Shown: positions 1-61,146 of the stretch, one piece after another
Numbering within the stretch: the stretch's first letter is position 1
Layout: every line of letters starts with the position of its first letter
Origin: Branchiostoma lanceolatum
Taxonomy: Eukaryota > Chordata > Leptocardii > Amphioxiformes > Branchiostomatidae
Reading direction: 5' to 3'
NCBI RefSeq assembly: GCF_035083965.1
Contig: NC_089726.1
Location: forward strand, 253,001-317,000
Length of the DNA: 64,000 bases
Position numbers and translations under genes: made by a program
The notes under the pieces: model-generated
What the model was told of the DNA's origin: nothing
The model's input: the letters and a program-made list of their open reading frames with translations, nothing else
The model's database searches: none

Positions 1-385
1 GGGTATGATCTTTCTCCGGCAGCAGCAGCTCGCACTACGCAAAGTACGTACATGTATCTCCTCATAACAAACAAACAAACAGGGTATGATCTTTCTCCGG
101 CAGCAGCAACTCGCACTACGCAAAGTACGTACATGTAACTTCTCATAATTAACAAACAAACAAACAAACAGGGTATGATCTTTCTCCGGCAGCAGCAACT
201 CGCACTACGCAAAGTACGTACATGTATCTCCTCATAACAAACAAACAAACAGGGTATGATCTTTCTCCGGCAGCAGCAACTCGCACTACGCAAAGTACGT
301 ACATGTAACTTCTCATAATTAACAAACAAACAAACAAACAGGGTATGATCTTTCTCCGGCAGCAGCAGCTGGCACTTCGTAAGGC
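1..385 (+). repeat. Tandem array of a coiled-coil exon 3' edge and its donor
   Basis: Five units start near 1, 79, 174, 252 and 341. Each carries a stretch translating as LRQQQLALRK followed at once by a donor-like GTACGT (degraded in the last unit), then an intronic spacer ending in (CAAA)n. Spacers alternate between about 79 and 93 bases, so the array grew as a two-unit block. The first unit runs off the window edge and may be the true exon. Confidence 0.75.
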
Positions 386-3300
386 AGGCATCTCTCTCCT
401 CATAGTGTATAAACAAACGAACGGTATCATCTTACTCTGGCCACAGAAGCTCCCATCACAAGAGACACTCATTCAAACTTATAATCTAATGAGAAATCTG
501 AAGAATTCCAGTCCAAGTTTTCACCATTTTTCACCTGCCACCTGTGATATTTAATGGCAAAATTAAATAGACTTTTGTATGACCTTGTTATTGCCTTTCC
601 TGTTATGTGACCTTTGTTGTTGTGTGACCTTGTCTTGACTTTGCTGTTATATGACCTTGTCTTGACCCTACCTGTTGTATGACCTTGTCTTGACCCTACC
701 TGTTGTGTGACCTTGTCTTGACCTTACTTGTTGATTTATGACCTTGTCCTGCCCATTGTCTTGACCTTGCCGTGCTGTCCTGCTGTGTAACTGTTTGTGT
801 CCTTGGGAACTTTAGGCTTGGAATTTCAAGGTGTCTGCTGTAAAGGCAAGTTGCACTAGACTCTGTCCTAGATTCATCTAGACCAGCAAGTTGTTGTTGC
901 ACTAGACTCTGTCCTGGTATCCTGTAGACTGGCAATTTGCCAGATGTTGTGCTAGACTCTGTCCGTCTCCTCTAGACTAGCAAGTTGATGTTGCACTAGA
1001 CTCTGTCCGTCTCCTCTAGACTAGCAAGTTGTTGTTGCACTAGACTCTGTCCTGGTATCCTGTAGACTAGCAAGTCGTTGTTGCACTAGACTCTGTCCGT
1101 CTCCTCTAGACTAGCAAGTTGATGTTGCACTAGACTCTGTCCTGGTATCCTGTAGACTAGCAAGTTGTTGCTGTGCTAGACTCTGTCCCAGTCTCCTCTA
1201 GACTAGCAATTAAGATGTTGCTGTGCTAGACTTTTTCAGGGTTTCAGATAGACTAGCAAGATGTTGTTAATGTACTACTAGCCTTTGTCCCAGTTTCTTG
1301 TAGACTAGCAAGATGTTGCAGCTGTTCTGGAATATCTAGCTTGTAAAATGACCCAGCAGAGAGGTACTTATAGGATGTAAACCAGCAGAAATGTGTGTGA
1401 AATGTGCTAGTAGGTTTCCCAGGTTGGCAGTAATAGTGACTGTTACAATTGCAGGGTGTGCTAGTTAGGCCCTAGCTATGATGTCAGTGTGGTTTAAGCT
1501 AGAAGTAGAACCTAGCTAGGATGTTAGGATATGTGCTAGCTATAACCATGACGGCTGTCTGTTGGCAGAACTTTGACTTTGACACGACCTCACAAATGTT
1601 TTTGACAAATCCCCTCAAGCTTCAAATCGTGTCCAGGCAGCATCTTCTAAAGTATTACATTGATTTCTTAGGAGTTTCATAAAATGTACTGGACTATTTA
1701 CTCGCCCTGCCAGTTTATTCTTGTGACACTGAACTAAGTCTTCATTTTCGTGCCAGAAAGACGCTGACAAGGTGACTTTTTTGTTCCAGGCGCTCCAACA
1801 GTCTGAGCAGGAATACCTGGCCATCAAGAAGAAGGTGGAACAGGAGGTACGGCCTGCTGTTGTTGCTGTTGTTGTTGTTGTTGTGTAATGTATGTTGTTT
1901 ATGAAAGGACTGTTGATTGTTATTTACAGCGGAACTGTACTGTAACTGTGCAGTTATACATGTAGGTTACGGGGGATATATTGTTCTTCGTTATTCATTA
2001 TCAAGGCAAACTATTGTATAGTTTCATATCAGGTCAGTACTAGTAAGTCACTGAATAACAAGATTCTTTGTACACTACCAACTGTTTTATTCACAGTCAC
2101 CAAATGTTTCAGTGACCGTTTGTCACCTTCCTCAGGGCAATTCTAACTGGTTAACATTGCACTGCAGCACAGGTGTCGCTGCTTACCCAAACTTAAATAT
2201 GCAAAGTGAACCAGTCAGAACTGCCCTTAGAAAGGTGACAGACGGTCACCGAAACATTGGTGTGAATAAAACGGGTGCACAATGAATATTGTTATTCAGC
2301 AAAGTAATTCTTCATAATTAAGGCAAACTCTTATTGTTGTTTTGTTGTTCCTTATTAAGGCAATGTTGTTTGTTGTTCCTTATTAAGGCAATGTTGTTTG
2401 TTGTTCCTTATTAAGGCATTGTTGTTTGTTGTTCCTTATTAAGGCATTGTTGTTTGTTGTTCCTTATTAAGGCAATGTTGTTTGTTGTTCCTTATTAAGG
2501 CATTGTTGTTTGTTGTTCCTTATTAAGGCATTGTTGTTTGTTGTTCCTTATTAAGGCAATGTTGTTTGTTGTTCCTTATTAAGGCAATGTTGTTTGTTGT
2601 TCCTTATTAAGGCATTGTTGTTTGTTGTTCCTTATTAAGGCATTGTTGTTTTGTTGTTCCTTATTAAGGCATTGTTGTTTGTTGTTCCTTATTAAGGCAA
2701 TGTTGTTTGTTGTTCCTTATTAAGGCATTGTTGTTTGTTGTTCCTTATTAAGGCAATGTTGTTTGTTGTTCCTTATTAAGGCATTGTTGTTTGTTGTTCC
2801 TTATTAAGGCATTGTTGTTTGTTCTTTTGTCAACAGGAGAAGGAGAAGAAGGAGCGCGAGCACATGGAGCTCCAGCGAGCCCGCAGCAAAAAGCAGCTGG
2901 AGTCGGCAAAAACTTCCAACATCGAGAAACTGGTGGGTTCTGTGCAGCCCGCTTTCTGGTGCAACTTTCCACAAGTTCAGCTAGAGGATATTAAGTACCA
3001 TGGCCATGCCACCTGTAGGCTCAGCTAGAGGATAAGTACCATGGCTATGCCACCTGTAGGTTCAGCTAGAGGATAAGTACCATGGCCATGCCACCTGTAG
3101 GTTCAGCTAGAGGATAAGTACCATGGCCATGCCACCTGTAGGCTCAGCTCGAGGATAAGTACCATGGCCATGCCACCTGTAGGCTCAGCTAGAGGATAAG
3201 TACCATGGCCATGCCACCTGTAGGCTCAGCTAGAGGATAAGTACCATGGCCATGCCACCTGCAGGCTACAGTTGTGCACTTGTAGGTTGTCTAATGTACA

Positions 3301-5657
3301 TGATTGTATGCACCTGCACAACTGTAGGTTTTGGTTGTTTTGCAGCTGGATAAGTTAGAAGATGAAGACCAGTGGCTCTGACACCTGTTGGCTGATGTGC
3401 AGCTGCTGTATCTTAAATGCTTTTTTGCAGCTGGATGAATTGTAAATTCTTCTTCTTTCAATTGAGGTAGCCAACTTCACCTAGCATGTTTTTTTTTACA
3501 GCTGGACGAGTTAGAAGACAAAGTCTAGCGGTTGCGCCACCTGTAGGTTGTTGTGTACAGCTGTCAGTTGTTGTAACAATTGTTGTAACTGTTGTTGTAA
3601 CAGTTGTTGTTGTTTCCAGCTGGATGAGCTGGAGGATAAGGAGGAGCAGGAGAAGACAAGCAAGCTGAGCCAGCTGTAGGCTGTTGTGTCCAGCTGTAAT
3701 GTGTTGTAACTGTTGTTGTTGTTGTTGTAACTGTTGTTGTTGTTGTAACAGCTGTTGTTGTTTTACAGCTGGACGAGCTGGAGGACAAGGACCAGCGGCT
3801 GCGCCACCTGTAGGCTGTTGTAACAGATGTGGTTGTTGTTGTTGTTGTTTCCAGCTGGATGAGCTGGAGGATAAGGACCAGCGGCTGCGCCACCTGACGG
3901 AGGAGCAGGAGAAGACCAGCAAGCTGAGCCGGCTGTCCATGGAGCGCGCCGAGAAGACGGTTCACGCGATCCGGTCGCAGCTGGACCACGAGCGCAGCCT
4001 CAAGCTGGACGCCTTCCAGCGGGTCGACGAGCTGCAGGCCCAGGTCTACGACTTCGAGAGCGGCACGGCAGCGAGGCCGTTCACCGCCAACACCACCGTC
4101 TGTACGTCCAGTTTGTTTTACTTCATTGTGTCAGAGAACATGCTTCATGTCATTGGTAACTTAAAGATAGTTGTAGTAGTCCACTGTTTTCTGCTGCTGC
4201 AGTAGTGAATTATTAAGATAAGACTCCACAAATAACTTAAGATTTCATGAAAACAAGCCTTAAGTGGCGCTGCAGCCGTTCACTGCCAACACAACCGTCT
4301 GTGAGTCCGCTTTTATTTTCTGTAGCCCAACTTAACTTCATCGTGTCAGGGAACGCGCTTCCTATCATTGATTAACACTCAACACATGACTGGACTGGAC
4401 TCAAGGTTCCATGAAAACAAGCATCAAAGATTGAAACATATTCTTTTGTAAAAGTGGTGTTGAAAGAACCATTACTCTCTAACCCATTGACATGGTGAAT
4501 AATAAGTTAGACATTCTATGACAAGGGCTATGAATATGTGAATGACATGCCATTATGATACATAAGTTGCATGAAAATGACTTGCAGTGAGTTTCTCTCC
4601 CGCAGCCCCCAGCCTCGCATGCGCTCTGGGAAGAGCCATGAATATGTAAATGACATGTAAATGATATGTAAATGAGCCTGTTTCTGCCTCCAGCTCGGCA
4701 GACCTCCACGCGGACCCCCAGTTTAGGGAAGTGTCATGAATATGTAAATGACATGTAAATGATATGTAAATGAGCCTGTTTCTGCCCCCAGCTCGGCAGA
4801 CGTCCACGCGGACCCCCCAGCCCCGGGTGCGCTCAGGAAAGAGCCGGTCCAGCGGGTTCAGCGACATCTCCCTCTGGCCCCCGTCCTCCGGCCCGTTGTG
4901 GCCCCCTGCGGCCGGCCCCGGGCCCATCCGCTCCCTCACCCCCGGCCCGCCCGCCAAGCCCAACGGGGTCGCCAAACTGCAGAGGCCAAAAACTGTGAGT
5001 CTCTCTCATAATGCTGCCTTGGAAATCAGTTTAAATGGGGTAGGGAATTTCCCGAGCAGCCTTTGTAACCCCTGCTTCTCCTAATTGGTCAGTGAAGTCA
5101 TGCTAGTCTTGAGCATTGATGTTTCTGGCCTAGGGTGAAGAGATGCTGCCACAGTAACAATTGAGCCGCCTTTCTTCGAAAATCGATGGCAACATCAGGC
5201 TCTGATGAATTGATTAAAAAAAAAAGTTATCTATATAACTGAAGGGACTACCCTAATGACAGTGTTGCAGCTGATTTCATTAATTTTGTAGTGATGACAA
5301 TAGAGTTAAGCCTAATCATCTCATATGTTACAGTGTTACTATGGTTTGCATTTGTAGCCATGGCAACAGAATGCAAGGTTGGTTTCAGCTGTTAGAAAAA
5401 GCAACACAACATCCTGCTGACATCACACATCCAGACTCACCTCCACATAACCACCAAGGGAAACATAGTCAGAAACAGGACCATTGTTTTCGGCAAACCC
5501 ACTGTTTGAAACCGAACTAATACGTGGTGAAACCTTCTCCCTTTCCCAGGTTACTGGACGATTGAAGAGCCGCATCGCTGAGAGCCTGATAGCAGAGCTA
5601 GAGCGGAGCACAGAGGACACCTTAGTGCAACTCCAGCAGCTACAGCACCAGAAGTAA
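2..5657 (+). CDS. Coiled-coil protein, 3' part of a gene starting outside the window
   Basis: I do not recognise the family. Exons read by splice sites and phase are 2-43 (5' end uncertain), 1790-1846, 2837-2932, 3855-4101, 4792-4994 and 5550-5657, ending in TAA at 5655-5657. Phases agree at every junction (0, 0, 0, 1, 0). The first four exons are rich in Glu, Lys, Gln, Arg and Leu with heptad character (EKEKKEREHMELQRARSKKQ; LDELEDKDQRLRHLTEEQEK), so a coiled coil is expected. Exon 4792-4994 encodes a Pro/Ser/Arg-rich, probably disordered segment (SLWPPSSGPLWPP). The last exon encodes a short helical C-terminus ending LQQLQHQK. No membrane segment is visible. A cytoskeletal or centrosomal role would be a guess. 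Several exon edges are surrounded by tandem decayed copies of themselves, listed separately. AATAAA at 6901 is a possible poly(A) signal. Confidence 0.72.
560..780. repeat. Short direct repeats with core TGACCTTGTCTTGAC
   Basis: About eight imperfect copies of a 25-30 base unit in an intron of the coiled-coil gene. No coding content. Confidence 0.6.
840..1325. repeat. Intronic minisatellite, core GACTCTGTCC
   Basis: About ten copies of a roughly 50-base unit built from TTGTTGTTGCACTAGACTC, CTGTCC and CTAGACTAGCAAG. Copies decay toward the right end. Bases 1325-1789 hold no gene I can support. Confidence 0.75.
2050..2300. mobile_element. Palindromic MITE-like element
   Basis: The two ends are near-perfect inverted repeats: CTGAATAACAAGATT at about 2050 faces AATATTGTTATTCAG at about 2300. 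The arms continue inward through TTTTATTCACAGTCACC and GGTGTGAATAAAAC, and through GACAAACGG-type sequence, for about 85 bases. No reading frame is carried. It lies in an intron of the coiled-coil gene. The superfamily is not assigned. Confidence 0.6.
2330..2830. repeat. 29-base minisatellite TTGTTCCTTATTAAGGCA
   Basis: About 17 nearly identical units ending just before the acceptor of the exon at 2837. The unit contains the palindromic core CCTTATTAAGG. Confidence 0.85.
2975..3268. repeat. 41-base minisatellite after exon 2837-2932
   Basis: Seven copies of a unit containing CAGCTAGAGGATAAGTACC and ATGGCCATGCCACCTGTAGG. It starts about 40 bases after the exon donor and does not include coding sequence. 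Confidence 0.8.
3345..3830 (+). repeat. Decayed copies of the 5' edge of exon 3855-4101
   Basis: Five partial copies start at about 3344, 3431, 3502, 3620 and 3769. Each has a polypyrimidine/CAG acceptor followed by CTGGAYGARYTRGARGA-like sequence matching the start of the true exon (LDELED). Each is closed by an in-frame stop within about 20 codons and separated from the next by TGTTGTTGT-rich spacer. Only the last copy, the true exon, continues. The 3' copies are closest to the functional sequence. Confidence 0.75.
4268..4360 (+). repeat. Copy of the 3' edge and donor of exon 3855-4101
   Basis: GCCGTTCACTGCCAACAC up to CCGTCT|GTGAGT repeats the end of the upstream exon (GCCGTTCACCGCCAACAC, donor GTACGT). 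About 60 bases of following intron are copied as well, including the TTCATYGTGTCAG tract. Confidence 0.65.
4590..4791 (+). repeat. Copies of the 5' edge of exon 4792-4994
   Basis: One copy at 4687-4722 repeats the acceptor and CTCGGCAGACSTCCACGCGG. Another at 4600-4635 resembles the following CCCCAGCCYCG segment. The ATGTAAATGACATG intron spacer is duplicated with them. Both copies are truncated. Confidence 0.65.
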
Positions 5658-5930
5658 TACCCTAGTGCAACTCCAGCAGCTACAGCACCAGAAGTAACAC
5701 CCTAGTGCAGCTACAGCACCAGAAATAACACCCTAGTGCAACTCCAGCAGCTACAGCACCAGAAATAACACCCTAGTACAACTCCAGCAACTACAGCACC
5801 AGAAATAACACCCTAGTACAACTCCAGCAGCTACAGCACCAGAAGTAACTTCAACAGCTACAGCACCAGAAGTAACTTCAACAGCTACAGCACCAGAAGT
5901 AACTTCAACAGCTACAGCACCAGAAGTAGG
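5625..5930 (+). repeat. Tandem copies of the last codons and stop of the coiled-coil gene
   Basis: The final coding sequence CAACTCCAGCAGCTACAGCA plus CCAGAARTAA is repeated about nine times after the true stop at 5655. The last copies are shortened to about 26 bases. Every copy keeps the stop codon, so it lies in the 3' UTR or beyond. Confidence 0.8.
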
Positions 5931-7303: not shown

Positions 7304-10300
7304 ATGAGCAGCGACATGAAAGCGAGGCTGACAGCAGGCCCACCCCGGTCTCCATGGCAACTGGACGCGAAACATGTGATATCAGCTGGGAGGCAACCCA
7401 GCAAAGCCGCGAATGAACTTCTCCGTAACTTCGGGAAACTTTCTAAAGGTGAGTGCTCAAACTTTCCGTTTAAAACCGTTTGGCGGCGAAGTGACGTTAG
7501 AATTGATGCGAAAACTTGGCAGAAGTTTGTCTCGTCGCTAACTCTGAAATACGATCCAACTCGCTACAAGAGCTTCCAGAAGCACTGATTACAACAACAA
7601 ACAAATACTTTTTGTCTAGCTAATTAATCTGCAATTCCTCTTCATAGAAGGGTCTGGGTAAGTTACCGCCTTTTCTTTTTTTGTTTCCTTGAGGGTCTGA
7701 ATCTGCGGATTTGTTGATAAGAGAAGTTTAATGTAGTCCTGCATGTCTGTGCGCGGGTCGGGTTGCCGGGATACGCGGGTTGGGCCGTGGGCGGTTCTGG
7801 GCTGTTTTCCCGTCTTAACTCCTGGGTTTGAGGCGCAAAATCTGTTTCTGTGTCCGTCTTCTCACCACAGCAGCTTCCTTGGCAAGCCTGAAGGTTTGTG
7901 GAGTTTCTGGCGTGGTTCCCTGGTAGCTGCGGCCGCCTGAAGCTGACAAACGCGACAGGAAAACCGCCATAACTGTCGCCATGTCTGTCCAACTCCCGTC
8001 AAACCTGACCTGCCGCTCTGTGTGGGTTTCACTCGGGATAATTTTTGACCAAATTTGCTAAGGATTATAACATTCAACTCTGGCTGTCTCGATGCAAAAT
8101 TCGACAAAAGAAAGCTCAAAACTAAAGCACCGTTCCACCTCTGCCCTAGCGAGATTTTAAGCACAGGACTCGACGTTTCTACGAGCTAGCAACACAAAAA
8201 TGTCTCATAAAACGCCACTCTGTTAACATTGAATCAGTAGTTCACGTAAAAAATACCCAAACTTCGGGTATTATTTGCAGGTTTTCAGTGTGATTCCCCA
8301 GATTTAAAGCTGCAGGGTGAGACAGGTAACTTTAGAAAGCAGGTTGTTGTTGTTTTTGTAAGGTTATACCGCAGGTGGTTGGCAGGTAACATCACAGAAG
8401 TCAACAGTTAGTGTTACAGGCACAAACAAAAAAACTATAAATAGTTCAGAGTTTTGTACTTTTACAGCAGCAGTCTGGAAAACTGGTAACAAAAAACTAA
8501 CGCCAGGATTAGTTTGCTCAAAAGAGGTAATGCTGGAACCAAGATTTTGTGGTGTTTGCCCCTAGTTTTGCCACACCTGTAGCTATCCCACCTGTAATGT
8601 TATAAGACTAGTTTGACATGTTATCACACCTGTAATGTTATCTCGAGTATAATGTTATCACAACTGTAGTGTTATCACAATCGTGATGTTAATGATATCG
8701 TCAATCACAATAAAACTCCACTGTTGACTTACCCACCACCAAACACGACCCCTGCTTTCAGGATCTGGCCGAGGGACAAATTTTCACTGTTTACAAACAA
8801 ACACATAAATAATGATATCTATAGTCAAAGAAGGTGAATTTTGAGGAGGTGGGGTGACTTTCTGCCTAGTTTAGGCTTGAGGTAAAAGACTTGACTTGAG
8901 TTTTCCTGAACTATGGAAGTGCTCCCAGTGTCAGGTGGGAAAGTTACAGCTGTGGACCGAGGCTATCAAACAATTTCTAAGTAATCTTTGAAAAATTTAC
9001 AACATCCCTATTCATTATTCCTTTTTACCCAGTAAAGTTTATGGTTCACCCAAGGAAAAAGAAGATGTTGTGGCTGTAGTGTTACTAACATTAATCTCCA
9101 AGTAGATTTTGGGTTTGATGCTTGTCCTGTATGTGTTAATGTGGTGTTTTCCTCTGTCCTACATACTGTATACATGGGGAAAGTTGGTGGCTTTTTTTGC
9201 TGTGACCTGTCCGCCGGGAACATGACACCACAAAATGTCCCTCGTTCTTCAGTACTGTACTACAGAATTGTTTCAACTGCAAAAGTTAAACACCGCAAAA
9301 ACCTCCTTTAGTGTCTCCCAACTGCGAAAGAAAACCGCTGTAAAACTAAAAGTAAATGATGTTGCAGTACTAGAGGCATGAAGCACACAGGAACAGCAAC
9401 TCTCTACTTTTAGCATTTCAGCCACTAAGCTGAAAAAAATGAGCAAAACAATGAGCACCATCATGAAAAAAATTAGCCTCCACTACCTGTCTACTTGTAG
9501 ACCTAAAGTAAACATTAACACAGGATGGATTTCCTCAGGAAAAGTCCTCATGTCTTCAAGTAGTCTGAGAATAAAAGAAGTTTTCTGAAGAGGCACTTCT
9601 ACATCGGGGTGAAGGGGTGTTAATTAGGGAGTAGAATAACGAGCGGAGTAGAAGCGTGCGTCCCGGCAGCAGAGAGGACTGAAGGCACGTTGTTGTTAGA
9701 GGCAGGAAAGTTTTTCTAACATTGTCAGACCGGGCGAACACCGAGGCTCAATAGCCTTTTCCTCCCACGTGTACCTCCCATTATTCCTGAACAACAGCAG
9801 CAACATGGAAACACGTCAGAATCCACACAGACACGCTCGGCTGAGCCCCCATAGTCAGCCCCGTGGCAATGAGATTGTGAAGCTGTGACACGCTCGGCTG
9901 AGCCCCCATAGTCAGCCCCGTGGCAATGAGATTGTGAAGCTGTGACACGCTCGGCTGAGCCCCCATAGTCAGCCCCGTGGCAATGAGATTGTGAAGCTGT
10001 GACACGCTTGGCTGAGCCCCCTTAGTCAGGCCCGCAGGATTGTTTGTTTAGGTCTGAAGCCGTGACATTGTGTCCTCCATGTCAGGTTCTTCCCAGGCTG
10101 GCTTTTATCTATATAACACAAACATGGCATCAGTGCAATTAATAGCTCGCCCATCATAATTGTTTTTAACATGAACAGACCTAAATCATGAGGCTGGTTA
10201 TGATGATTGTAAATCTATCTGTAAAAGCTAGTCACATTTATATGTTGATGAAAGTTAGACATCCAGGTAGTAAGATACGCCAAAAATAATTACTCAAGCA

Positions 10301-13300
10301 ATTGGATAAAATTCAAAATTTTATCCAGTTGCTTGAGTAATCATTTTTGGCGTAGTCTCGTTTATGTTTAGGAAATGTTCATTCTGTAATCCCGACACCT
10401 GCCTTTACAGGTGACTTGTTCCAATTCAGGTGTTCCATTCTTGGGGTTCTCTCCACTGCTGACAGTGATTCTCATGTGAGAGTGGGAGGGTTGCCATGGG
10501 GGTTTAAGGAACACATTTGTATTTTTCAAAGTTGATCCATCTTACATGCGCAGCATTCAAATCAAAGCTGTTTGTATGTTTATATGTTTGTTCTGCTCTG
10601 CCCTGTTGTTTCCAGATTTTGCTGAAGTTTGTTTGTTTGTTCTGTTGTGCACAGATTTTGCCGGAGAGCCGTCCTGCTCGATGATGATGATGATGTTTGT
10701 GTGTGTGTTTGTTTGTTTATTTATTTATTTGTTCTGCTGTGCCCAGATTTTGCCGGAGAGCCGCCCTGCTCGATGATGATGATGATGGGCAGCGCTAAGC
10801 GGCCGCCCCCCTCCCGCTGCAGCTCGACCGTTCCAGTCCTGCCGCAGATCAAACCGCCGCACGCCACGCGGATCTGCACGTTGCCGGGCGTGAAGACGCT
10901 CACGGCGACGCACCCCGTCCCGCGGCTGAACCCGCTCAGACCCCCGCAGCACGAGGGTGAGGATCTGTACCTCTTCTTGTGTCGTGTTCGTGTTTGTTTA
11001 TTTTATTCAGATCTACATTATTATAAGGGTAATTACAATTCTACCTGGAGTCCACTTATGTGCTGATGTGTCTAGCCAGTGCCTTAAGGATTAAATTTGA
11101 CAATAAAAATAGTGTTTATGACTATTTCTCATCAGGCATAGGTAACCGTCACCTATAGCTTAGTATAATCAGGCACAAAATTGTGACCTATGTAGCTTGG
11201 ATTGCAGGGTTTTATCCACCTCCCAAAGCATGGCTGTCAGAATAAAACTTGGAGTCAGCTCAACTGAAGATGTCAGTGCTGCGTTGTTCGATCAACACAA
11301 CTAATATATATATAGGGACCACAGAACATAACCCTTATCAGTCAGTGCGTCCCCCGGTTTATCCGTCGTGTTGTCCGTCCCGCAGGCCGGCGTAACGTGA
11401 GTCTGGAGACGGTGGAGACACACCACCACAACCTGCAGCGCAGCCTCACTATGCAGCAGGCCCAGCACTTCCGCTTCCACAACTCCTGGAGAAAACCTTA
11501 CTACGGCACGCCCGCCGAGAAGGAGTCTCACAGGTAAGTCTTAGACGTCTTAGAACACTTTCACTTCCACAACTCATGGAGAAAACCTTACTACGGCACG
11601 CCCGCCGAGAAGGAGTCTCACAGGTAAGTCTTAGACGTCTTAGAACACTTTCACTTCCACAACTCATGGAGAAAACCTTACTACGGCACGCCCGCCGAGA
11701 AGGAGTCTCACAGGTAAGTCTTAGACGTCTTAGAACACTTCCGCTTCCACAACTCCTGGAGAAAACCCTACTACGGCACGCCCGCCGAGAAGGAGTCTCA
11801 CAGGTAAGTCTTAGACGTCTTAGAGCACTTCCGCTTCCACAACTCATGGAGAAAACCTTACTACGGCACGCCCGCCGAGAAGGAGTCTCACAGGTAAGCA
11901 CTTTCACTTCCACACAGGTGAGCACTTTCACTTCCACAACTCATGGAGAAAACCTTACTATGGCACGCCCGCCGAGAAGGAGTCTCACAGGTAAGTCTTA
12001 GACGTCATAGAGCACTTTCGCTTTCACAACTCCTGGAGAAAACCTTACTACGGTACGCCTGCCGCGAAGGAGTCTCACAGGTGAGTCTTAGACGTCTTAG
12101 AACACTTTCACTTCCACAACTCATGGAGAAAACCTTACTACGGCACGCCCGCCGAGAAGGAGTCTCACAGGTAAGTCTTAGACGTCTTAGAACACTTCCA
12201 CTTCCACAACTCCTGGAGAAAACCTTGCTACGGCACGCCCGCCGAGAAGGAGTCTCACAGGAGAGGCTTAGACCGTAAGTTAGACGTCTAAAGCTCTTTC
12301 ACTTATCTATCTGCAGGATTTGATTCTATCTACAGATTCATTGATCGATGTTAGACAAATCAGGACAAATTTTTAAGTGATGATTGACATATGGAATGAT
12401 TGATGTTTTCCCATCTATCTGCAAGCTTTGATTCTATCTACAGATTCATTGATTGACACATCAGCACCCGTACATCAGGACAAACACGTTGTAGACACTT
12501 AAAATTTGAACTGATGATTGATGTTTTCCCATCTGCAGGAAGGACATCCGGCTGATCCTTTAGGAGCAGATGGCAGAGGCCGGCTGCAGATGATGATTGA
12601 TTGATGATTAATTGATTGATATTTTAACATCTGCAGGAAGGACATCCGGCTGATCCTGCAGGAGCAGATGGCAGAGCGGATGCAGATGCAGCGCGAGTCG
12701 TTCCGGGACCGGAAGCAGGAGAGCGAGTTCGCCGTGCAGCACGACCGGCAGTGCCTCACGGACGACGCGCAGAACTACCGCAAGCGCGCAGAGTACCTGC
12801 AGCACTTCAGGGACGAGAACAAAAAGGTAGAGAACAAATAAACATCCACATCACAATTCTGTTAGATCATCCTCTAACATGTACAGTTATACATGTCCAT
12901 GTACCCATGCCTGTAGCACATCGGGAATTAGAATAAAAAGTACAAACGATATCTGATACCCCTCATCACAATATCTCAAATATTACTTGTACATTCAATA
13001 TCATATCAATCTATATCCACATTACACTCTAGTCTTATATCTGATACATACAATACATTTGTATATGCTTGACATATTGCCTAAATGCTCAATCTTATAA
13101 AGGTACAAACATGTACTTCATAAAGTAGCATATTTCTATGGTGTAGATCAGAAATAGATACTTAACATTCACCAATTGCTGACGTCACGTATCCGCAGTG
13201 ACATGTGTCAATAGAGTCACGTGTCCGTAACTCTCGCGAGTTTACGTTCGGCAGTGTTGGTCATTATTGATCCTGAAGAAGGCGACAGTGGTCGTCGAAC

Positions 13301-13490
13301 ATTCGATCCGTGAATACCTTAGTGTTGGAAGAAAGTTTAGCATTGTATTATACTTAACATTCTCGTCCCCCCCCCCCAGCTAATGGAGTGGAAATGGGAC
13401 CAGTCGAGACAACAGAGACAACGGCAGGACCAGCTGGACAGGGAGATCATGAAGTACAACCCCATCAACTGGAGCGGCTCACTCAAGTAG
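7304..13490 (+). CDS. Unrecognised 267-residue charged helical protein, five exons
   Basis: Exons are 7304-7448, 10747-10956, 11386-11533, 12637-12826 and 13380-13490, and the lengths sum to 804 bases with all phases matching (1, 1, 2, 0). The start is the ATG at 7304 (MSSDMKARLTAGPPRSPWQL), the first in the exon's frame; TAG is at 13488-13490. Residues about 50-120 are Pro/Arg-rich with a five-Met run. Residues about 120-170 include HNLQRSLTMQQAQHF and NSWRKPYYGTP. Residues about 170-267 are strongly helical and charged (ILQEQMAERMQMQRESFRDR), ending in NPINWSGSLK. No signal peptide or membrane span is seen. The style resembles small axonemal or microtubule-binding proteins, but that is inference only. 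Exon 2, 3 and 4 edges and the stop codon all have tandem copies beside them. Poly(A) signal candidate is at 14805. Confidence 0.75.
8560..8720. repeat. Short repeats with core ACCTGTAATGTTATCA
   Basis: Five or six decayed copies in the long first intron of the 267-residue protein gene. The rest of 7449-9800 shows no gene. Confidence 0.5.
9822..10050. repeat. 57-base minisatellite in intron 1
   Basis: Three and a half nearly identical units containing ACACGCTCGGCTGAGCCCCC and GTGGCAATGAGATTGTGAAG. The unit length is divisible by three, so it creates an open frame on the minus strand, which I treat as an artefact. Confidence 0.8.
10272..10358. mobile_element. Hairpin MITE, arms TTACTCAAGCAATTGGATAA
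   Basis: Two about 40-base arms (TACGCCAAAAATAATTACTC and its complement with two mismatches) meet at AAATTCAAAATTTT. A relative with a larger loop is at 38095-38245, and the flanking GACATCCAGGTARTAAGATAC recurs at about 30868. Confidence 0.65.
10600..10746 (+). repeat. Copies of the 5' edge of exon 10747-10956
   Basis: At 10653 and, more decayed, at 10614, an acceptor CAG is followed by ATTTTGCCGGAGAGCC as in the true exon. The nearer copy runs through the five-ATG repeat before diverging into a GTTT-rich spacer. Confidence 0.75.
11534..12275 (+). repeat. 90-base array copying the 3' half and donor of exon 11386-11533
   Basis: About eight units follow the true donor at 11534. Each holds about 60 bases of exon (HNSWRKPYYGTPAEKESHR), a donor CACAG|GTAAGT and about 30 bases of intron. 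One unit is shortened near 11895-11930 and the final unit has lost its donor. Reading through any donor meets TAA at once, so no unit can extend the exon without splicing. The unit length of 90 is a multiple of three. Confidence 0.85.
12520..12636 (+). repeat. Copy of the 5' edge of exon 12637-12826
   Basis: CATCTGCAG|GAAGGACATCC at about 12530 repeats the acceptor and the first 45 bases of the exon, but carries an in-frame TAG (CTTTAGGAGCAG) and a decayed end. The TGATTGATGATT intron stretch is duplicated too. Confidence 0.75.
12827..13379. other. Intron 4 of the 267-residue protein gene
   Basis: No gene. Bases about 13265-13350 contain CTGAAGAAGGCGACAGTGG followed by TCGTCGAAC, a motif type common at the ends of dispersed animal repeats, so this is probably a repeat fragment. 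A C run precedes the final acceptor. Confidence 0.4.
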
Positions 13491-18770: not shown

Positions 18771-18771
18771 G

Positions 18772-37889: not shown

Positions 37890-37995
37890 TACAGACCAGT
37901 GGACGATATCAAAATAGTTAAAGCTTACCCCTCACAATGATACGGACCCGTGGCCAATACCTATCAAAATAGTTCAGGCATATTCCTCACAAAGA
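37890..37995 (+). repeat. Copies of the PPIL1 C-terminal codons after the stop
   Basis: CCAGTGGACGATATCAAAAT, AGTTAAAGCTTACCCCTC, ACAATGATAC is repeated once almost perfectly at 37892-37942 and once in decayed form to 37992. Confidence 0.85.
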
Positions 37996-38094
37996 TCTCT
38001 ACTGCCAAACATGGAGGATCTGTTGGTTTATTGTGGTCACTTTTATGTATAAACACAAGACATGACTGATTTTTGTTTACCATTCCCTAAGTAG

Positions 38095-41395: not shown

Positions 41396-41397
41396 TA

Positions 41398-42955: not shown

Positions 42956-42957
42956 GC

Positions 42958-44035: not shown

Positions 44036-44088
44036 ATCTCCTCGGCAACGCTCATTACTAAAACCTTGTGTTTCGCTTCGCGCAGAGC

Positions 44089-47000
44089 ATGGTGGGAACG
44101 TCTGTAACGCTGCCAGTGCTCGCGGTGCTTGTCGGGATCGTCCTGCCGACTGCAGGTAGGCTTTTCAATGTCAGAATTCGCGCTACCAGTAAAAATTATT
44201 TTTGGTAAAAGTTGAAGAGGATATTCTTTTCTCAGCTGGCAAGATTTTCTTTCGGAGGCAACCAGCACCGTGTTGCTAACGGCAAATTTCTTTGCCGTGG
44301 GAAGTCCAATAATCATGTAAAACTTCCCGCTGTGATCTGTATAGACCTCAGGGGCTGGATAGACTTCCAATACTGGACACATCACATCATTGCATGTAGT
44401 AATGATTATAACCTTCCGCCTTGGTGCTTTGTCCTCCAGCTGCAGCAACCACCTCTTCGCCGTGGTTGCCATGGACAACCAGCCCTCCCGCGGGTGAGTT
44501 CGAGTTCTGTCTGCTGCCAGCTGATACCTTCGCTCGAGGGCTATATTACGCTTCTTATCAGATTAAATGCCCAATAAAACTATGGTCCTTTTCTGATTAT
44601 TTGATAGCTATGGTTACCTTTCTCTTCTTTTCCCTATGGCTACTTATGAATGGTTGGAAACCAAAATGATACACCAAAAACATCGCTAAGCATATTATTC
44701 TTTGTGAAGAATGTTATTCTGCGTTTTAACATCATATAAACTACATCTATGCACGGGGGCCCCATTCAATACCCTTGATCTGTGTATGTGCAGCATATGG
44801 TCATAACACCCATGTTGTGGGAAAGATTGTGACCTTCTTTAATATCAGATCAAATGGCTAAAGTCAATTCCTGATTATTTGATGGTTATGGTTACCTTTC
44901 ATTTCTTTTCCCAATGGCTGTTTATGAATAGTTAGGAACCAAAAAGCTACAACAGAAACATTGCATCACTTTTTCTATTCTTTGTGAAGAATGTTATTCT
45001 GCTTGTTAACCGTACGAATTACATCTATGCACCCTTGAACTGTGTATGTGCAGCATACTAAAGGCCCCACACAGAACACCATCAACCGAAGTGCTCTCTC
45101 GGCTGAGCTGGAAAGACATTAAAGAAACACTCCAATACTACAATGCCGTACAAACCTACAAAGCCCTAAACAACAAACTGCCACCCTACATGCACCAGAT
45201 GTTTGTGTACTGTAGAGACCAGAGTACTCGTACAACCAGACAAAGCACAAGCAGTCAGCTGGTTGTCCCCAAACCCAAGCGAGAGATCTTCAGAAGATCG
45301 GTAGCCTACCGTGGACCAAATGTCTGGAACAGCCTACCGCCAGACACACGTACGGCTCCGAATCCGACTTCCTTCAAGAGACTCTTGAAGTAACGGAAAT
45401 GAACTAAACGAACGGACACGGACCATGAACCAGCTTTCGCCCTACTTTATGTTGTATGTTGTAGAAATTGTATATTGTTGTACCATAAATATGTAATGAT
45501 ATATGTTGATAGAGTTATTAGGACTCAAATGACTGTGTATCTCTGTTATATTGTATCTGACCCTTACCTCTTCCCTCATGACCTCAATGAAAAGCGGCCT
45601 GCGTGCCGATTTGAGCTTATCATGAATAAACAAAGGTTCAAACAAACAAAAATATACCCTAACCCCGCCAGTCATCGATAATGTTGGTTGAACAGCGATC
45701 CGATCCCGTCCCCACAGACAAGCCGTGTGGCGAGTTCCCGTGGAGCGCGGCTAACATCACAGTGGACTGTGACTACAGCTACTACAGGTCCAGCAGACTC
45801 TACGACTACAGCAACGGCACATATTACAGCGGTCCTTTCAGAGGGCGCTGTGCGGTCAGCTGCTCCGATGGCATGCCGGTGATAGGCCCGCCCGTTACTT
45901 CCTACTCCGGGCCTGACAGCCACTACTACTGCCATGTAGACTCGTCAACATGGCTCGGAACCGAACCTCGGTGCGAAGGTAAGGGTTGTGAGGCACAAAC
46001 ATTGATTAAGGATCAAATAAATCATGCGCGTAGTTTCAGCACTGATTTATCCGATCAAGGACATTATCCTATATAACCCGATCAATCTTAACAATTGGTT
46101 GACATGTCCTCAATGTGGTGTCTTTACGTAGGAGGTTCTTTACGAAGATCCCGCCCACTATTTATACCAAGATTTAATGTTAGATTAGATTAATTACTTC
46201 AGTTCTTTATGTAAAGAGGCTTTGTGTTGCTCTACCTCTAAAGCAGCACCTGAGATAGAAACAACATCAAACATATTTCACACGATTTGGACGATCTTCC
46301 CCACAGACAAGCCGTGTGGCGAGTTCCCGTGGAGCACCGCTAACGTCACAGTGGACTGTGACTACAGCTACTACAGGTCCTACGGCCTCAGCGACTACAG
46401 CACCGGCACTTGGTACAGCGGTCCTTTCAGCGCGCGCTGTGCGGTCAGCTGCTCCAATGGCATGCCGGTGATAGGCCCGCCGGTAACTTCCCACAACGGG
46501 CCTCACAACCACTACTACTGCCGTGTAGGCTCGTCAGCATGGATAGGAACCGAACCTCGGTGCGAAGGTGAGAGTTTTAGGCAAGGGGTAGCTGGGGGGT
46601 AGTGACCACACTTTACGAAAAATTCAAATCTTCCCTGAAAGCACGACGCGATTTTGCCACACTGACTTGATGATATGGATGGTATCCACGCGCGGATCAA
46701 TTTTTGTCCGTTTCCAACAAAATATCGAAAATTTTGTGACCGTAAATCGTACGCAGGAGCCTTTTCCCATCGCATTTTTAAATCATATTTACCAGTACAA
46801 CTTAGCTGATAAATGTACTTCCAAAGTCAAGGTTGAATCTACAAAAGAACAAAATATGTATTTTTGTTTGGTATTCACTTACTATTCAATGCTCAGTTCT
46901 GCATTTCCTGACCAGGTTTTATGATAAAGTTTTCGGTTGCCCGAAGATGTCATTCATACAATCAAATCCCAGCCGAGATAGAAACGAGAATAAACATATT

Positions 47001-50000
47001 TCACAAGACGTTGGCTCTCTCCTCCACAGACAGGCCGTGTGGAGAGTTCCCGTGGAGCCCAAACAACGCCACAGTGGACTGTGACTACAGCTACTATAGC
47101 TCAAGGTCCTACATGGACGGCATGTCCAACCAAGCTTGGTTCAACACACGTCTGTACGGGGGCCTGAGGGGCCGCTGTGAGGTCCGGTGCGCGCCGCCGT
47201 TAGTCACGACAGGGGCGCCGCTTCTTGACCCTGACGGAGGCGGCTACTTCTACTGCCACGCACAGACCGCAACCTGGCTGGGGCAGGAGCCGCAATGCCA
47301 GGGTAAGAACATAAATAACCTCTATAGCAGGCTCCACCAAAGGCTGATTGCTTCCGTGTTCTGATGGCTGCCATTTTCGATTCTGAAAATTCATGGCACC
47401 AATGAATGGTCATAATGTATTCACTTTAGAAATATACTATACATGTATGACATTGTTTGTAGCCAGTATGACAATGTGAAATGCATTTTGACGGAGCGAA
47501 AATCCTTTGGATAAACAGTTCTGACGGTAATGTCATTCCACGGAGGATCCATCGATGCTCCTGAAAAGCAAATACCCACTTAAGCACAGGTATTGTACCT
47601 TATGTATCTGAGGACTATCTACATATCGCAGCACTTCTGGGGGCGTCTTGAAAATACTACTTGGTGTTATGTGTGGCTCTTGCTTATTTTCTCCAAGTAT
47701 CTTTGTACGAGACGATGACTTATGCAAAATTTATGGCGTCATGATGACTTCATGAAAAATTACAGGGTCACGCCCCTTTTTAAAAAAAGCCCCCTCCCTA
47801 ACGATCCAATGTACAACACTGATATTTTAGAGAAAGATGCATGATAGTGATCTTGTTCATTACACGGCAGCCTTTTTTTTATATCTTTTGAATTTAATGA
47901 GAACCTCGTTCTGTTGGCCCTCCTACATTTTTACAGCATCAGGATGCATTAGACCAGATGGTAATTTTTCTAATGGGGGGTGGGGGGTATTGTTGCGGCA
48001 TACATGTGTCTCCCACCTGAACATCTTCTGCCGTTATCTGTGCTTTTTTTTCCACCCGTCCAACTTACCGCAATTCCCTTCATCACAGACAGACCGTGCG
48101 GACCGTTTCCATGGCAGCCGACCGACGCCACAATCGACTGTGACTACGGCTACACCGGCAACAGAAGCTACCGCGACTACCAGACTGGGACGAGGTTCTA
48201 CCCGGGAGGTCGCTGCTCCGTCATCTGTTCTAACAATCTGACGGTAATGGGGGCGCCTTATCTTTCTCCTGACGGAGGAAACTACTACTACTGCCATCCT
48301 GGGGCCTCAACGTGGTTAGGCATAGCGCCGTCTTGCCAAGGTAAACAGACCTAAAGTTTAAATTAAGGGAGCACACCCCAGTTTATTTTGGGTTACACTT
48401 GGAGGCTGCGCACCCTCAAATATAGGTACTGTCTCTTCCAGGGAATTACTCCAAAGTACGAGTAACTCAACTGTGTATGGAATGAAAGCATATTCCTTCC
48501 GCTACAGGACGAACTGAGTTTTATTTCTTCAACCTCTCTAATTTTGGTAAATTACAAGAAAAAAATTGTTTTTACGTCAAAAATGATGGGCGAATTGATA
48601 AGCCTTATCGATGAATCAGATCTAAGTAAATCAAACTTTCGTGCCAATACAACCTTGATTTTGAGCAAGTACCCGTTGCTGCGCTATCAGAAGGAACCAA
48701 CAACCAATTATTCTTGGACACTGAATATCAAACATGACAGTCTTGATTTAGCCTGGATGCCAGACCCCCAATCTCTAAGATATATATCGAGTATATATTT
48801 TAGAGATTGGGGGTCTGGCATCCAGGCTAGTCTTGATTACGAGTGTATGTTAACTTTATACAAATGGACCTTACCAAAACTCTTGTCCCGGCCTTACCTT
48901 TACCTGTTCGAACCCATCAGGCTTTGGCTGATGGCTTCAACGGAACACTGATGATCAGTTTCACACGTTGCTCCTCCGCAGAGAAGCCGTGTGGAGATTT
49001 CCCGTGGAACAACCCTGATGTAACGGTAGACTGTGACTACGACGACGGTGGGATTTGGAACATTTGGAACAATGTGTTGTATTACCGTGGCCGGTGCCGT
49101 GTCTCCTGTGTAAATGCTGAGCTGCTAGTCGGTCCGCCGGTACATCATAGCACATATTACTCCTGCAGCATCAGCAACGCCAGCTGGACCGGTACCGAGC
49201 CCGTCTGTATCGGTAGGAGACATTTTTTCTTTAAACTTACCCTTATAAAAGGATACATGGCAGATCAACATCGTCCCTTTTCCAGTCCTGTTTTATTCCT
49301 GAATGATGCCCTGAACAGACTTACCAAAAAAAAAAAAAACCTGATAGCCAAAGACCATTAGCCTTCCAAAGATTCATCTGACCCGACAGTTGATCTTACT
49401 AGACCGGATAGAATATAATGCAGGTTCTGAAGCACGTGGCTTTGTGCTCGTGCTCAATTTGTTTGTTTGTTTGTCTGTCTGTTTGTTTCTATTGCATACC
49501 CGGGTAAACCGCCTCAAGGCGTAACACATCAGGTTTATACTGATGAGTACCAACTGCATATCCGGACAGATTTATATGATCTAGCCTAAATTCAATCAAG
49601 CCTCTTGTGACCGTTCGCGGCCCTGTAACCACCTCGCAACCCAAGAGAGGGAGAGAAACCCCCGGACAGCTGGAGTTTGCGTTATACAGACCATATATGA
49701 TCCACTCACACCGGGAAGTACTCCTATTTTTTTCGATAAGTGTGTTGGGTTATTTTACGTGCTCGAGGTGTGGCTCTCCTCAAGCACGGGACCTCCATTT
49801 AACGTCCTATCCGAGGCACGTCCCTAACCAAAGCTAGGTGCTCGTTTTCACCCAGGACCTCTGGGTTCTGTACCAAACACCCTAGTACTACGCCACCGCA
49901 ACGCTACTAGTACTGACTTAACCGTTTCAGAAGCTGATTATTGGTCCTTAGCCTTCTGGGAATTGTAAACAGCAATAGACCGGAACCGTTTGAGGCTTAC

Positions 50001-53000
50001 GGTTGAGACTTGATAGTAACTAACTAGTTGTAATTCTCCTCTTTGTTCCCAGGTGGGTTCGACAGCTCGTCAGTAGCCGAGAGCGAGGCCAACCGAGTCC
50101 GGCTGGTGGGGGGAGAGTTCTACGGCTGCGTGGAGCTGTACGATGACGTCACGCAGCAGTGGGGACCGGTCGTTGGGTTCAGCTTGAATGTATATAACCC
50201 GGCGTATGAGTCCAGGATGGCCTGGGCTGACCTCGTCTGCAGGGATGTTGGGTTTATTGGGGGTTTGGCCACAAACGCGTTCCCTACGGGAGGTACCTCG
50301 ATCACACCAATATCAGAGCAATTCTACACCTCCTACTCCCGCCCTAACGACACCGGGCCGAACTTTTTCCTGAACACGAGTTCTCCTGTGTCCGCGGGAG
50401 GAGTTCAGCACCTGTCCGACACCGTGCGGAGGGTGGTCCGGGGCGACTGCACGGACCGGTCGGACTGTGATTATTACCTGATGTGTTTGGCCTGTCAGAA
50501 GGATAAAAAAGGTAAGTCTTTTGTCCGAATGTTCTGTTTTTGAAGTATTGAGGTTTGTTTAACTATAGTGTTTCAAGCAAACTGCTCGATATGTGTTATA
50601 CAAGTACATTTGCAGTTACATTTGTTACAGAACATTTATGGTTACGGGAACTAGAAAGCGACATTCTCCTCCCCAGTCCAGGGCGACCTGTCCTGTAACT
50701 CCACCGCCATGTCGGTCAGCTTCCGCCGGGACGATCTAGGCCGCCATGTCGAGTCCAGCATGCACCTGCGCGACCCAGCATGCACTGCGGTTTTCAATGC
50801 AACTCACGCCACCTTCAGCACTGCCCTTGACGAATGCGGGACAACAGCGGCGGTGAGTTTTATCTCTGAACGGAAATTCATAATTACATCGCCTCTGGGC
50901 AACATAGAAATGATGTTCAAGCTCTAACCAGCATCATCATCATTGGTCGGCTGCAACGCAGGCGACTGTAAGTCTCTTGTTCTTTCTGTCGGCAGCAAGG
51001 TTTGCGATTTGCTCAGGCACAAGTAGACCCAGGAGTTGTTGTAAGCACTGCAGGTAGGTTTGATCTCACCAGCAAGGGTGGACAAATGTAGTATTAGACG
51101 TGGCGGGATAAGTAGTGGTTGTAGTAGTAGTTATAGTCTTATCTTAGAACGTTATAATCACATTGTCTCTGTGCAACATTATGATTTTAACTAGAAAGCA
51201 TGAACAAAGATAGTATTAGAAGTACCAGACGTAGTAGTAGTTTAAGAAATAAATGGCTTATAAAATCTCATCACTGAGATCCTAAATAGTGTCCAATTTT
51301 TTGAAAGGGTGTGCAAGGTTATGAGACACTTAACAAGTTGGTAGGGAAAGGAAAGCGATAGAAGATTTGTTGCCCCTGCCACGAAGAACCGGCCATTGTT
51401 AGCATCATTCTCCAACAATCGCATAAACAGCTGCATGTCCAACATCTGGCAATAAAACATCATCACTCATGAAATGCAGACGTACATGATGATTGTATTC
51501 ACAGGAAAACGGTACAACCAGCAAGATCGTCTACACCAATGACGTCTTCGCATCCCTGCTGCAAAGTTCCCCGGATGGAGCTGACGTCATCACCAGGACC
51601 ACGGAGGACCGTTGGACGTTCAACTGTCATTACGTCAGAGATGACTCCGTAGCTGTCGGCGCCCTGTTTCCGGTACCGCCTCCGAGGTGGGTTGATTCAA
51701 CATGTGCGCCATTGTTGGGAGACTAATTTTCCCTCCAACCCAGGAAGAAAATTGACATTTTCACTGTTGCTCCCACTAGTGTGGTGGTCCTTCACGGAGA
51801 GGGGACTTTTACCTTCAGTATGAACCTGTACCGGTCAGACGGCTTCTCCCGTCCGTACGCACAGTCGGACTTCCCTGTGGAGGTATGTATGAACCTGTAA
51901 GCACAGTCGGACTTCCCTGTGGAGGTATGTATGAACCTGTACGCACAGTCGGACTTCCCTGTGGAGGTATGTATGAACCCGTACGCACAGTCGGACTTCC
52001 CTGTGGAGGTATGTATGAACCTGTACGCACAGTCGGACTTCCCTGTGGAGGTATGTATGAACCTGTACGCACAGTCGGACTTCCCTGTGGAGATATGTAT
52101 GAACCTGTACGCACAGTCGGACTTCCCTGTGGAGGTATGTATGAACCTGTACGCACAGTCGGACTTCCCTGTGGAGGTATGTATGAACCTGTACGCATAG
52201 TCGGACTTTCCTGTGGAGGTATGTATGAACCCGTACGCACAATCGGACTTCCCTGTGGAGGTATGTATGAACCCGTACGCACGGTCGGACTTCCCTGTTC
52301 CCTAGACGCTTTGCACATTTAAGTTTATTCCAATAGAGGGCTTTCCACGTAGCCTGAGTGCCAGCCTTTTTAGCTTCCGTACGCGAGGCGAGGAGCGGAG
52401 CTTGGGTAGCGTACGGAAGCTAAAAAGGCTGGCACTCAGGCTAATTTCCACGGGCTTTAAAAAACATTTTCCTGTTCTTTGATATTGTTTGCACGCTTTT
52501 GACTATTTTTCGTCTCCAGGTAGTGGTCAACGATGACGTGTATTTCGGCATCTCGGTGGAGGCGGCCGTCTCCGGTCTGGTCCTGTTTGTGGACAACTGC
52601 AAAGCGACGCCGTCTTCCACCCCTGGCGACTCTATAGAGTACTACATCATACAGAACGGGTAAGGAGATGGCGGGTCAAATATATGTTCTTTTTCTAATG
52701 GAAGACTTTAAAGGGCTCTTTTGAAAATGTATTAAAACAAAGCACATTTATATGACGTTAATACTAAGTGAATCGTAGTCTATAAGTTTCAGGGCCAAAA
52801 CAAAAAAAGGGCGGGAGATTTTAACTATTAATCATTGTCGCATTTCCCGTCCTTCCAGATGCGACCAGGACGACACTCTTCAGGAGTTCCCGATCGCCTC
52901 GGCTACTTCTGCGCACTACGGCATCTCTGCATTCAAGTTCACCAACGAATCACTGGTATATTTACCCTATTGTTCGACGTGCGCTTTTTATACGATGTTT

Positions 53001-55427
53001 ATCGCTCCTGATACTTGAGTCATCTTCTAATCACTTTTATTCTGTATTCTGTGTTACTCAAACCAAAATAATTGGCACTAGTTTGAAAGTTGCCGGTGAA
53101 TTTGGTAATCAAAAGGTATCATCTTCATCTGGTACAGTTCATAGGGAGTACCGAGGGCTGTTTGGTCCCCGTCAGACGGATGCATTTGTAAGTGCGCTTC
53201 ATGTCTGGAGTCGAAAAGCAGGATGCACTGTCTAGTGTGCACCAGCACTGTGACATCGCGGTGTGTTTGATATCTAAAGCCATACGCGTGCCTCAGTGAC
53301 GTCATGGTGAACTTTTTTCCCAAGCCGTTCGTGTACCTGCACTGTGACGTCATGGTGTGTCTGGAGAACACCCTCGGCTCCAGATGTGACGAGGGTTGCG
53401 TCAGCGCGCGCAGGCGCAGACGGGCCGCAGACGACGGCGTGGAGGAACGCGCTACCCTGGTGCAAGGGCCTATCGTCCTGGTCTCATATGAAACTCCAGA
53501 CGGTAAGGAATTCATCTATACTACTAATACTGTATTGTCTCTCCAATAGTCTGCATCATCCACAGGAATCATTAGTCTAAGAATGCCATACATATACCTT
53601 GACGGGACATTGATTCAGCGGCCTGAATGTCATCCTGGTTCACGAGGAGTCTTCAAACGGTATGGAACATTTTCTCTCCCGAACCCCAAGAATTGATTTC
53701 CTTTTCTACTAACCTACACTATCACATGTGTATCATAAGATTAACCGTTACTTTAGTACCCTGGTTTGGGGACCGGTCGTCCTGGTTCAAACGTCATGTT
53801 CTCTACTACGTCACGAGCACCAAAATGACTCCTAAAAGGTGACATCTGTGGCAAGAGATCATTTTGCCTGCCCATGAGTCATGTTACAGTTTACAGTTAA
53901 CCACTACCCATTCTTGTCCATTTCAGCCTGTTCTGAGAGCTGCGACCTGCATGCCTCCTGCAGCCCCTCGGCAGGGAGATGTGTGTGCGAACCTGGGTGG
54001 GTTGGAGACGGGGTCCACTGCCAGGGTGAGTACGGATATGCGTGTGCGAACCTGGGTGGGTTGGAGACGGGGTCCACTGCCAGGGTGAGTACGGAGATGT
54101 GAGTGCGAACCTGGGTGAGTTGGAGACGGGTTCACTGCCAGGGTGAGTACGGATATGCGTGTGCGAACCTGGGTGGGTTGGAGACGGGGTCCACTGCCAG
54201 GGTGAGTACGGAGATGTGTGTGCGAGCCTGGGTGGGTTGGAGACGGGGTCCACTGCCAGGGTGAGTACGGAGATGTGAGTGCGCACCTGGGTGGGTTGGA
54301 GACGGGGTCCACTGCCAGGGTGAGTACGGATATGCGTGTGCGAACCTGGGTGGGTTGGAGACGGGGTCCACTGCCAGGGTGAGTACGGAGATGTGAGTGC
54401 GAACCTGGGTGGGTTGGAGACGGGGTCCACTGCCAGGGTGAGTACGGAGATGTGTGTGCGAACCTAGGTGGGTTGGAGACGGGGTCCACTGCCAGGGTGA
54501 GTACGGAGATGTGAGTGCGCACCTGGGTGGGTTGGAGACGGGGTCCACTGCCAGGGTGAGTACGGATATGCGTGTGCGAACCTGGGTGGGTTGGAGACGG
54601 GGTCCACTGCCAGGGTGAGTACGGAGATGTGAGTGCGAACCTGGGTGGGTTGGAGACGGGGTCCACTGCCAGGGTGAGTACGGAGATGTGAGTGCGCACC
54701 TGGGTGGGTTGGAGACGGGGTCCACTGCCAGGGTGAGTACGGATATGCGTGTGCGAACCTGGGTGGGTTGGAGACGGGGTCCACTGCCAGGGTGAGTACG
54801 GAGATGTGTGTGCGAACCTGGGTGGGTTGGAGACGGGGTCCACTGCCAGGGTGAGTACGGAGATGTGTGTGCGAACCTGGGTGGGTTGGAGACGGGGTCC
54901 ACTGCCAGGGTGAGTACGGAGATGTGTGTGTGCGAACCTGGGTGGGTTGACGACGGGGTCCACTGCCAGAGTGAGTACGGGGATGTGTGTGCGAACCTAG
55001 GTGGGTTGGAGACGGGGTCCACTGCCAGGGTGAGTACGGGGATGTGTGTGTGCGAACCTGGGTGGGTTGAAGACGGGGTCCACTGCCAGGGTGAGTACGG
55101 GGATGTGTGTGCGAACCCGGGTGGGTTGGAGACGGGGTCCACTGCCAGGGTGAGTACGGGGATGTGTGTGTGCGAACTTGGGTGGGTTGGAGACGGGGTC
55201 CACTGCCAGGGTGAGGACGGAGATGTGTGTGCGAACCTGGGTGGGTTGGAGACGGGGTCCACTGCCAGGGTGAGTACGGAGTTGTGAGTTTTAACCTGGG
55301 TTGGTTTGGGATGGGATTTTGATTTGGAGGCGAAAAAAATGCTGACTTGTTATTGTTTATGGACTCAAATGGTTTACATTACCTCTAGTTGATGGATTTA
55401 TGAAACCTCCTTCGGCCGCACCATCCT

Positions 55428-60974: not shown

Positions 60975-61146
<172 letters not shown>

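Follow-up and report, generated by a model that had tools for sequence, protein, structure and literature searches.

Tandem copies of coding edges at splice borders and stop codons in 64,000 nucleotides of lancelet DNA

Many coding borders in the window, as we call the whole 64,000-nucleotide stretch of DNA that was analysed, are accompanied by tandem copies of their own edges. The copies lie close to the exon, mostly retain its signal, and occur at stop codons as well as at splice sites; counted by repeat unit, they touch coding sequence more often than random placement within the window predicts. We consider it probable that these are border-anchored minisatellites (“mirages” at splice borders), founded by duplications straddling a coding edge and subsequently expanded. 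Both the density of border arrays and the stop-codon form look unusual.

Gene models and border copies

At least six protein-coding genes were modelled in the window, with 84 coding borders (39 acceptors, 36 donors, 6 stops, and 3 starts):

G1: coiled-coil-like protein, 5 exons found
G2: unnamed protein, 4 exons
G3: PRA1-family protein, minus strand, 3 exons
G4: phosducin-like protein, 8 exons
G5: PPIL1, 3 exons
G6: large membrane protein with ZP, EGF, and SEA domains, 19 exons

Exon modelling drew on codon usage and homology together with splice signals and reading phase, and the models were completed by hand; segmentation by codon usage alone missed small exons and was dropped as a gene finder. 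It should be noted that the models are not blind, as seven stretches at coordinates of the original prediction seeded the first codon model. Reading phases join stop-free in all six models. Pfam supports G3, G4, G5, and the final 762 residues of G6, and the PDB supports G5 and a rough draft of G4. Because human relatives align across the junctions of G5 and the first junction of G4 (27424 to 28489), these borders are independent of the repeats. PDB searches with rough drafts of G1 and G2 returned no convincing relative (none up to E 1 for one, a best E of 0.16 for the other), and Pfam searches with their final models returned no family; splice signals and continuity of phase are therefore what the borders of these two genes are based on.

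Within the window, no first exon was found for G1, G2, or G6. An array at 9830-10034 (57 bp x 3.6) closely follows an ATG at 9805 and may be the donor array of a first G2 exon; a search for a convincing donor there found none, and the array was counted as non-border. As far as it was found, G6 starts with five cysteine-rich domains that are of a single type and occupy one exon each (45718-49212; KPCGEFPW and alike), for which Pfam gave no family at its cut-off. An open frame at 45010-45390, judged by eye, resembles the terminal part of a LINE reverse transcriptase, and the Pfam search of this frame gave nothing above the cut-off.

Tandem copies were established by TRF and by direct reading of the sequence. 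The original prediction lists 19 coordinates for them, and 18 of these coincide with modelled borders (7 donors, 7 acceptors, and 4 stops) that have copies nearby. The other, coordinate 43, lies within an array at the left edge of the window, with no modelled exon adjoining. The arrays and copies are as follows:

2977-3854, plus: diverged acceptor copies, G1 exon 3 (border 3855); TRF, 3 copies at 72% identity or more
within 2977-3854, plus: array of 41 bp x 7 that looks, by eye, derived from the border 3855 copies
4277-4300, plus: one diverged donor copy, G1 exon 3 (border 4101); 22/24 nt (92%)
4628-4817, plus: acceptor copy, G1 exon 4 (border 4792), unit 98; TRF, one copy
5617-5928, plus: stop-codon array, G1 (stop ends 5657), unit 40; TRF, 5 copies
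10590-10746, plus: acceptor copies, G2 border 10747; one copy, a shorter one by eye
11466-12273, plus: donor array, G2 border 11533, unit 90 x 8.9; TRF, identity search
12530-12636, plus: acceptor copy containing an in-frame stop, G2 border 12637; one copy
13456-14033, plus: stop-codon array, G2 (stop ends 13490), unit 51 x 11.4; TRF, identity search
18769-19311, minus: stop-codon array, G3 PRA1 family (stop ends 19258), unit 91 x 6; TRF, identity search
19462-19614, minus: 19-bp array, 18 nt in common with the donor unit of border 24859; TRF, match by eye
24058-24880, minus: donor array, G3 exon 2 border 24859, unit 37 x 22; TRF, identity search
25026-25255, minus: acceptor copy, G3 exon 2 border 25076, unit 112; TRF, one copy
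27411-27804, plus: donor array, G4 phosducin-like border 27424, unit 64, with inverted copy 27476-27501; TRF, identity search
28150-28518, plus: acceptor array, G4 exon 2 border 28489, unit 79; TRF, identity search
28598-28762, plus: donor array, G4 exon 2 border 28614, unit 35; TRF, identity search
32006-32365, plus: array of 23 bp x 15.7 beginning on the base after the G4 stop, a TRF array without coding bases; TRF, gene model
36382-36731, plus: acceptor array, G5 PPIL1 exon 2 border 36688, unit 126; TRF, 2 copies
37845-37996, plus: stop-codon copy, G5 (stop ends 37889), unit 51; TRF, one close copy
51855-52298, plus: donor array, G6 exon 9 border 51882, unit 42 x 10.6; TRF, identity search
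53975-55306, plus: donor array, G6 exon 13 border 54025, unit 59 x 22.5; TRF, identity search

Two or more copies besides the exon are present at 12 of the 18 borders and one at the other six (4101, 4792, 10747, 12637, 25076, and 37889), with extra diverged pieces near 4792 and 10747 read by eye. Searching by coding identity recovered 68 donor, 13 acceptor, and 21 stop copies. AG and GT were not used in finding the splice copies, and they are retained in 63 of the 68 donor and all 13 acceptor copies. Together, 76 of 81 splice copies keep their signal; all 21 stop copies keep the stop, a count biased by the stop codon lying inside the compared stretch. In overlapping the exon edge and carrying these signals, the splice-border arrays are of the published amphioxus mirage kind, as had been suggested. 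The four stop-codon arrays look similar and are not classed as mirages, since a mirage border is an exon-intron border.

Copies accompany exons of all six genes, as predicted, though unevenly: 15 of 46 borders bear arrays in G1-G5 and 2 of 38 in G6 (p = 0.002). These 17 array borders, compared below with the 67 others, exclude border 4101, which has one diverged copy and no match in the position test described below, and three domain exons (45718, 46307, and 47030), which resemble each other rather than carrying tandem edge copies.

Several further arrays lie near borders. The array at 19462-19614 consists of short donor-edge copies. It lies late in a 5.5 kb intron, with 65 nt left before the following acceptor, and matches the array at the start of that intron. 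Another (2333-2823) ends 14 bases upstream of an acceptor and contains no coding bases, and an array of 48 bp x 3.5 (35566-35734) stops 79 nt short of the start codon of PPIL1, on its upstream side.

Border arrays counted by position and by unit

The 106 rows of the TRF output were merged by hand into 34 arrays with periods of at least 17, shorter periods being left out; the edge array 1-376 entered no test except the collapsed-sequence rotation described below. A long CA microsatellite occupies 60978-61146 (84.5 units by TRF).

Whether borders bear more repeats than chance would give depends on what is counted. When every position counts, 20 of the 84 border words of 24 nt (the three domain exons included) recur within 2 kb, compared with a rotation mean of 16.0 (sd 4.0). 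This is no excess, as 1720 of 8858 rotations reach 20, and 19.7% of wholly non-coding 24-nt words are also repeated locally. Such figures are what one would expect without any targeting, if local repeats simply fill about one-fifth of the sequence and borders are struck like anything else. The same reading gains from whole-array placement without limit, even over whole exons: 9.15 overlaps with coding sequence are then expected against 13 observed, and 176 of 2000 trials reach 13. Coverage, however, counts a single array many times, and unlimited placement lets arrays cover exons, whereas none of the 34 arrays overlaps coding sequence by more than 68 nt. When this observed maximum is imposed, whole-array placement yields 2.8 or 4.7, and none of 2000 trials reaches 13.

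Because an array is founded once, we judge unit-level tests to be the fitting nulls. Overlap with coding sequence by at least 5 nt is seen in 13 of the 34 minisatellites, 9 of them overlapping a coding edge at a splice border. One unit per array was placed at random, and units that fell within coding sequence or enclosed an entire exon were removed. The expected number of overlaps was then 2.0 for the whole window, 3.1 for genic sequence, 2.7 with G+C matching, and 3.6 with both restrictions, corresponding to a 3.6- to 6.4-fold excess that none of 2000 trials reached in any of the four versions. Analogously, when each array was collapsed to one unit and the exon map rotated, 13 of 84 borders were hit against 2.5 expected (0 of 10956 rotations). 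In our opinion, these results make the absence of targeting unlikely. The genic unit test is robust to requiring a score of at least 100 or 300, at least 3 copies, or a period of at least 30 (0 of 5000 in each case), and to removal of the G6 region (11 of 31 arrays, reached by 1 of 5000 trials).

The excess comes from five genes. In the collapsed rotation, G1-G5 give 11 of 46 borders against 1.4 expected (0 of 10956), and G6 alone, with 2 of 38 borders hit and 1.15 expected, does not significantly exceed chance (3643 of 10956 rotations reach its count). Over-representation at borders, from which the original prediction derived its idea of targeted copying, is therefore borne out per founding unit in the window and not by position; its proposed comparison with random positions, worded most simply, corresponds to the position test. 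The further suggestion that only border arrays survive is not supported, since 21 of 34 arrays have no coding overlap, although four of these (2977, 3670, 19462, and 27501) seem on visual inspection to descend from copies of a border. The unit-level excess applies to one window, and six genes are too few for generality.

Stop codons, base composition, and the origin of the copies

Arrays are present at 4 of 6 stops (5657, 13490, 19258, and 37889) and at 13 of 75 splice borders, a difference with p = 0.016 that is one among several tested; none of the three start codons, a tiny count, has one. The stop-codon arrays argue against splicing as the common cause, since splice signals are evidently not needed. 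This weakens the idea that the arrays stem from a process tied to splicing or transcription, such as R-loops, or nicking of splice sites, in genes that are expressed in the germline. The difference between G1-G5 and G6 would agree with such a process, as would the membership of G3 to G5 in families that are broadly expressed; the sample is six genes known from sequence, and we think this origin rather improbable.

It had also been proposed that the compositional step between a G+C-rich exon and its A+T-rich intron makes the polymerase switch template and so founds the arrays. Coding edges are indeed richer in G+C than flanks (0.61 and 0.46 at array borders), but the step does not distinguish the 17 array borders from the 67 others (0.148 vs 0.124, p = 0.57), nor does edge G+C differ significantly (p = 0.33), both comparisons having low power. 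Matching for G+C leaves only 2.7 or 3.6 expected overlaps where 13 are seen. A seeding role for the step is accordingly very unlikely.

Template switching itself, separated from the G+C step, has one direct support. In the G4 donor array, a spacer segment of 26 nt is followed, after 1 nt, by its inverted copy at 96% identity (27449-27474 and 27476-27501). This near-perfect palindrome, 27449-27501, is read as a putative template-switch scar, and strand-switching synthesis is favoured because unequal crossing-over does not produce inverted copies. Among the 15 regions searched, this was the one strong match; two other regions yielded only short ones (18 to 22 nt, 77 to 89% identity), and twelve yielded none. 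Two G1 exon 3 copies, near 3620 and 3769, part from the exon at two different CTG triplets and, as read by eye, continue into one shared spacer, TAGGCTGTTGT. Together, the inverted copy and the CTG copies with their shared spacer point to template switching during replication in some of the steps at least.

Across the 12 arrays that hold at least two copies, 7 of 431 sites carry a fixed difference between exon and copies (in at least 80% of copies). For the Chinese lancelet, polymorphism is given as 4.39% for SNPs and 0.98% for indels (PMC4284660). Set against this polymorphism, and taking the window as lancelet DNA, so few fixed changes indicate that the arrays are young or homogenised. Exon-copy mismatches lean to the third codon position (3.5, 4.5, and 7.4%), and the sites that vary from copy to copy show the same lean (26, 25, and 43; p = 0.045); plainly neutral copies need not show such a lean, which counts against them.

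That the extra arrays are assembly errors seems to us the least probable explanation of all. Published lancelet repeats of this kind vary across assemblies (2 and 7, 3 and 6 copies), PGBD5 repeat copy number among assemblies being an instance (PMC3902484), and both such errors and tandem repeats are on record for huntingtin scaffolds. On the other hand, the copies in most arrays described here differ from each other and from the exon, and the PGBD5 sequence was upheld by re-examined Sanger and new Illumina data (PMC3902484).

In the explanation we prefer, a founding duplication of 35 to 126 bp (the range of TRF periods) would have one breakpoint in coding and the other in non-coding sequence. 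The gene-side copy would stay whole, leaving protein and reading frame unchanged, and the spare copy would be free to multiply and drift by the usual minisatellite routes: unequal exchange, slippage, and replication template switching. An intact gene-side copy would explain why border duplications are tolerated; it does not account for their excess over intronic arrays. Tolerance by itself would give some 2 to 4 border arrays where 13 are seen, so a seeding bias must be added: seeding would be several times commoner at coding edges (or in coding sequence, with inner duplications lost) than elsewhere. We infer this bias, the order of events, and the neutrality of the copies. Arrays at 4 of 6 stops fit the view that any edge will do if the gene-side copy is whole, as do the 0 of 3 starts, and the wide spread in the coding share of the unit (0.27 to 1.02 across 13 arrays) is as random breakpoints would give. 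In favour of the same explanation are also the retention of AG or GT in most splice copies, the few fixed differences from the exon, the unit-level excess, the inverted copy, the CTG copies of G1 exon 3, and the variable copy number of the PGBD5 repeats. Counting against edge-straddling duplication are the position test without excess, the absence of significant excess in G6, and the finding of a strong inverted copy in only one of 15 regions. Moreover, under a simple scoring matrix, 66 of 75 spare splice sites equal or outscore the site in use, so the harmlessness of the copies is not obvious.

Relation to known repeats and significance

The same structure, named “mirage”, has been described in the lancelet globins BflGb6 and BflGb9, where its mechanism is called unclear (PMC3087553), and in lancelet PGBD5 (PMC3902484); Adh3 and troponin C are cited there as further cases. 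The published repeats are likewise tandem copies over donor or acceptor edges, with units of 10 to about 160 bp and AG or GT in many copies. Unlike them, the present arrays, read from DNA, are spread over 14 splice borders of six adjacent genes and lie at four stops as well. Introns of lancelet VCBP3 hold partial exon copies, some with splice signals (PMC2632668). These intronic pieces similarly resemble the adjoining exon, but where they are mentioned they are given as “data not shown” and not described as arrays. Titles and abstract openings among the listed matches in the lancelet literature, with few subscription papers, mention neither stop-codon arrays nor a border test. Splice-border repeats are thus confirmed as already known, and the additions made here are the look-alike stop-codon arrays and the unit-level excess in one window.

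Intron gain through tandem duplication of AG/GT-bearing sequence has been modelled (the Rogers model, cited in PMC3087553) and human cases described (PMC2812944), and intron gain from mirage copies has itself been proposed in print (PMC3087553). The arrays share with that model duplications carrying splice signals; here, in contrast, the duplications straddle existing borders.

If the excess proves genome-wide, short duplication would prefer coding edges as its target and not the splice site itself. The arrays supply dozens of natural tests of splice choice, and the proposed gain of introns from such copies becomes testable. More speculatively, and with well below even confidence on our part, coding-sequence edges, stops included, may be duplication hot spots, perhaps in germline-transcribed genes, at which equally strong spare splice sites keep arising; the lancelet genome may then be a natural setting in which to study how splice sites are chosen and introns born.
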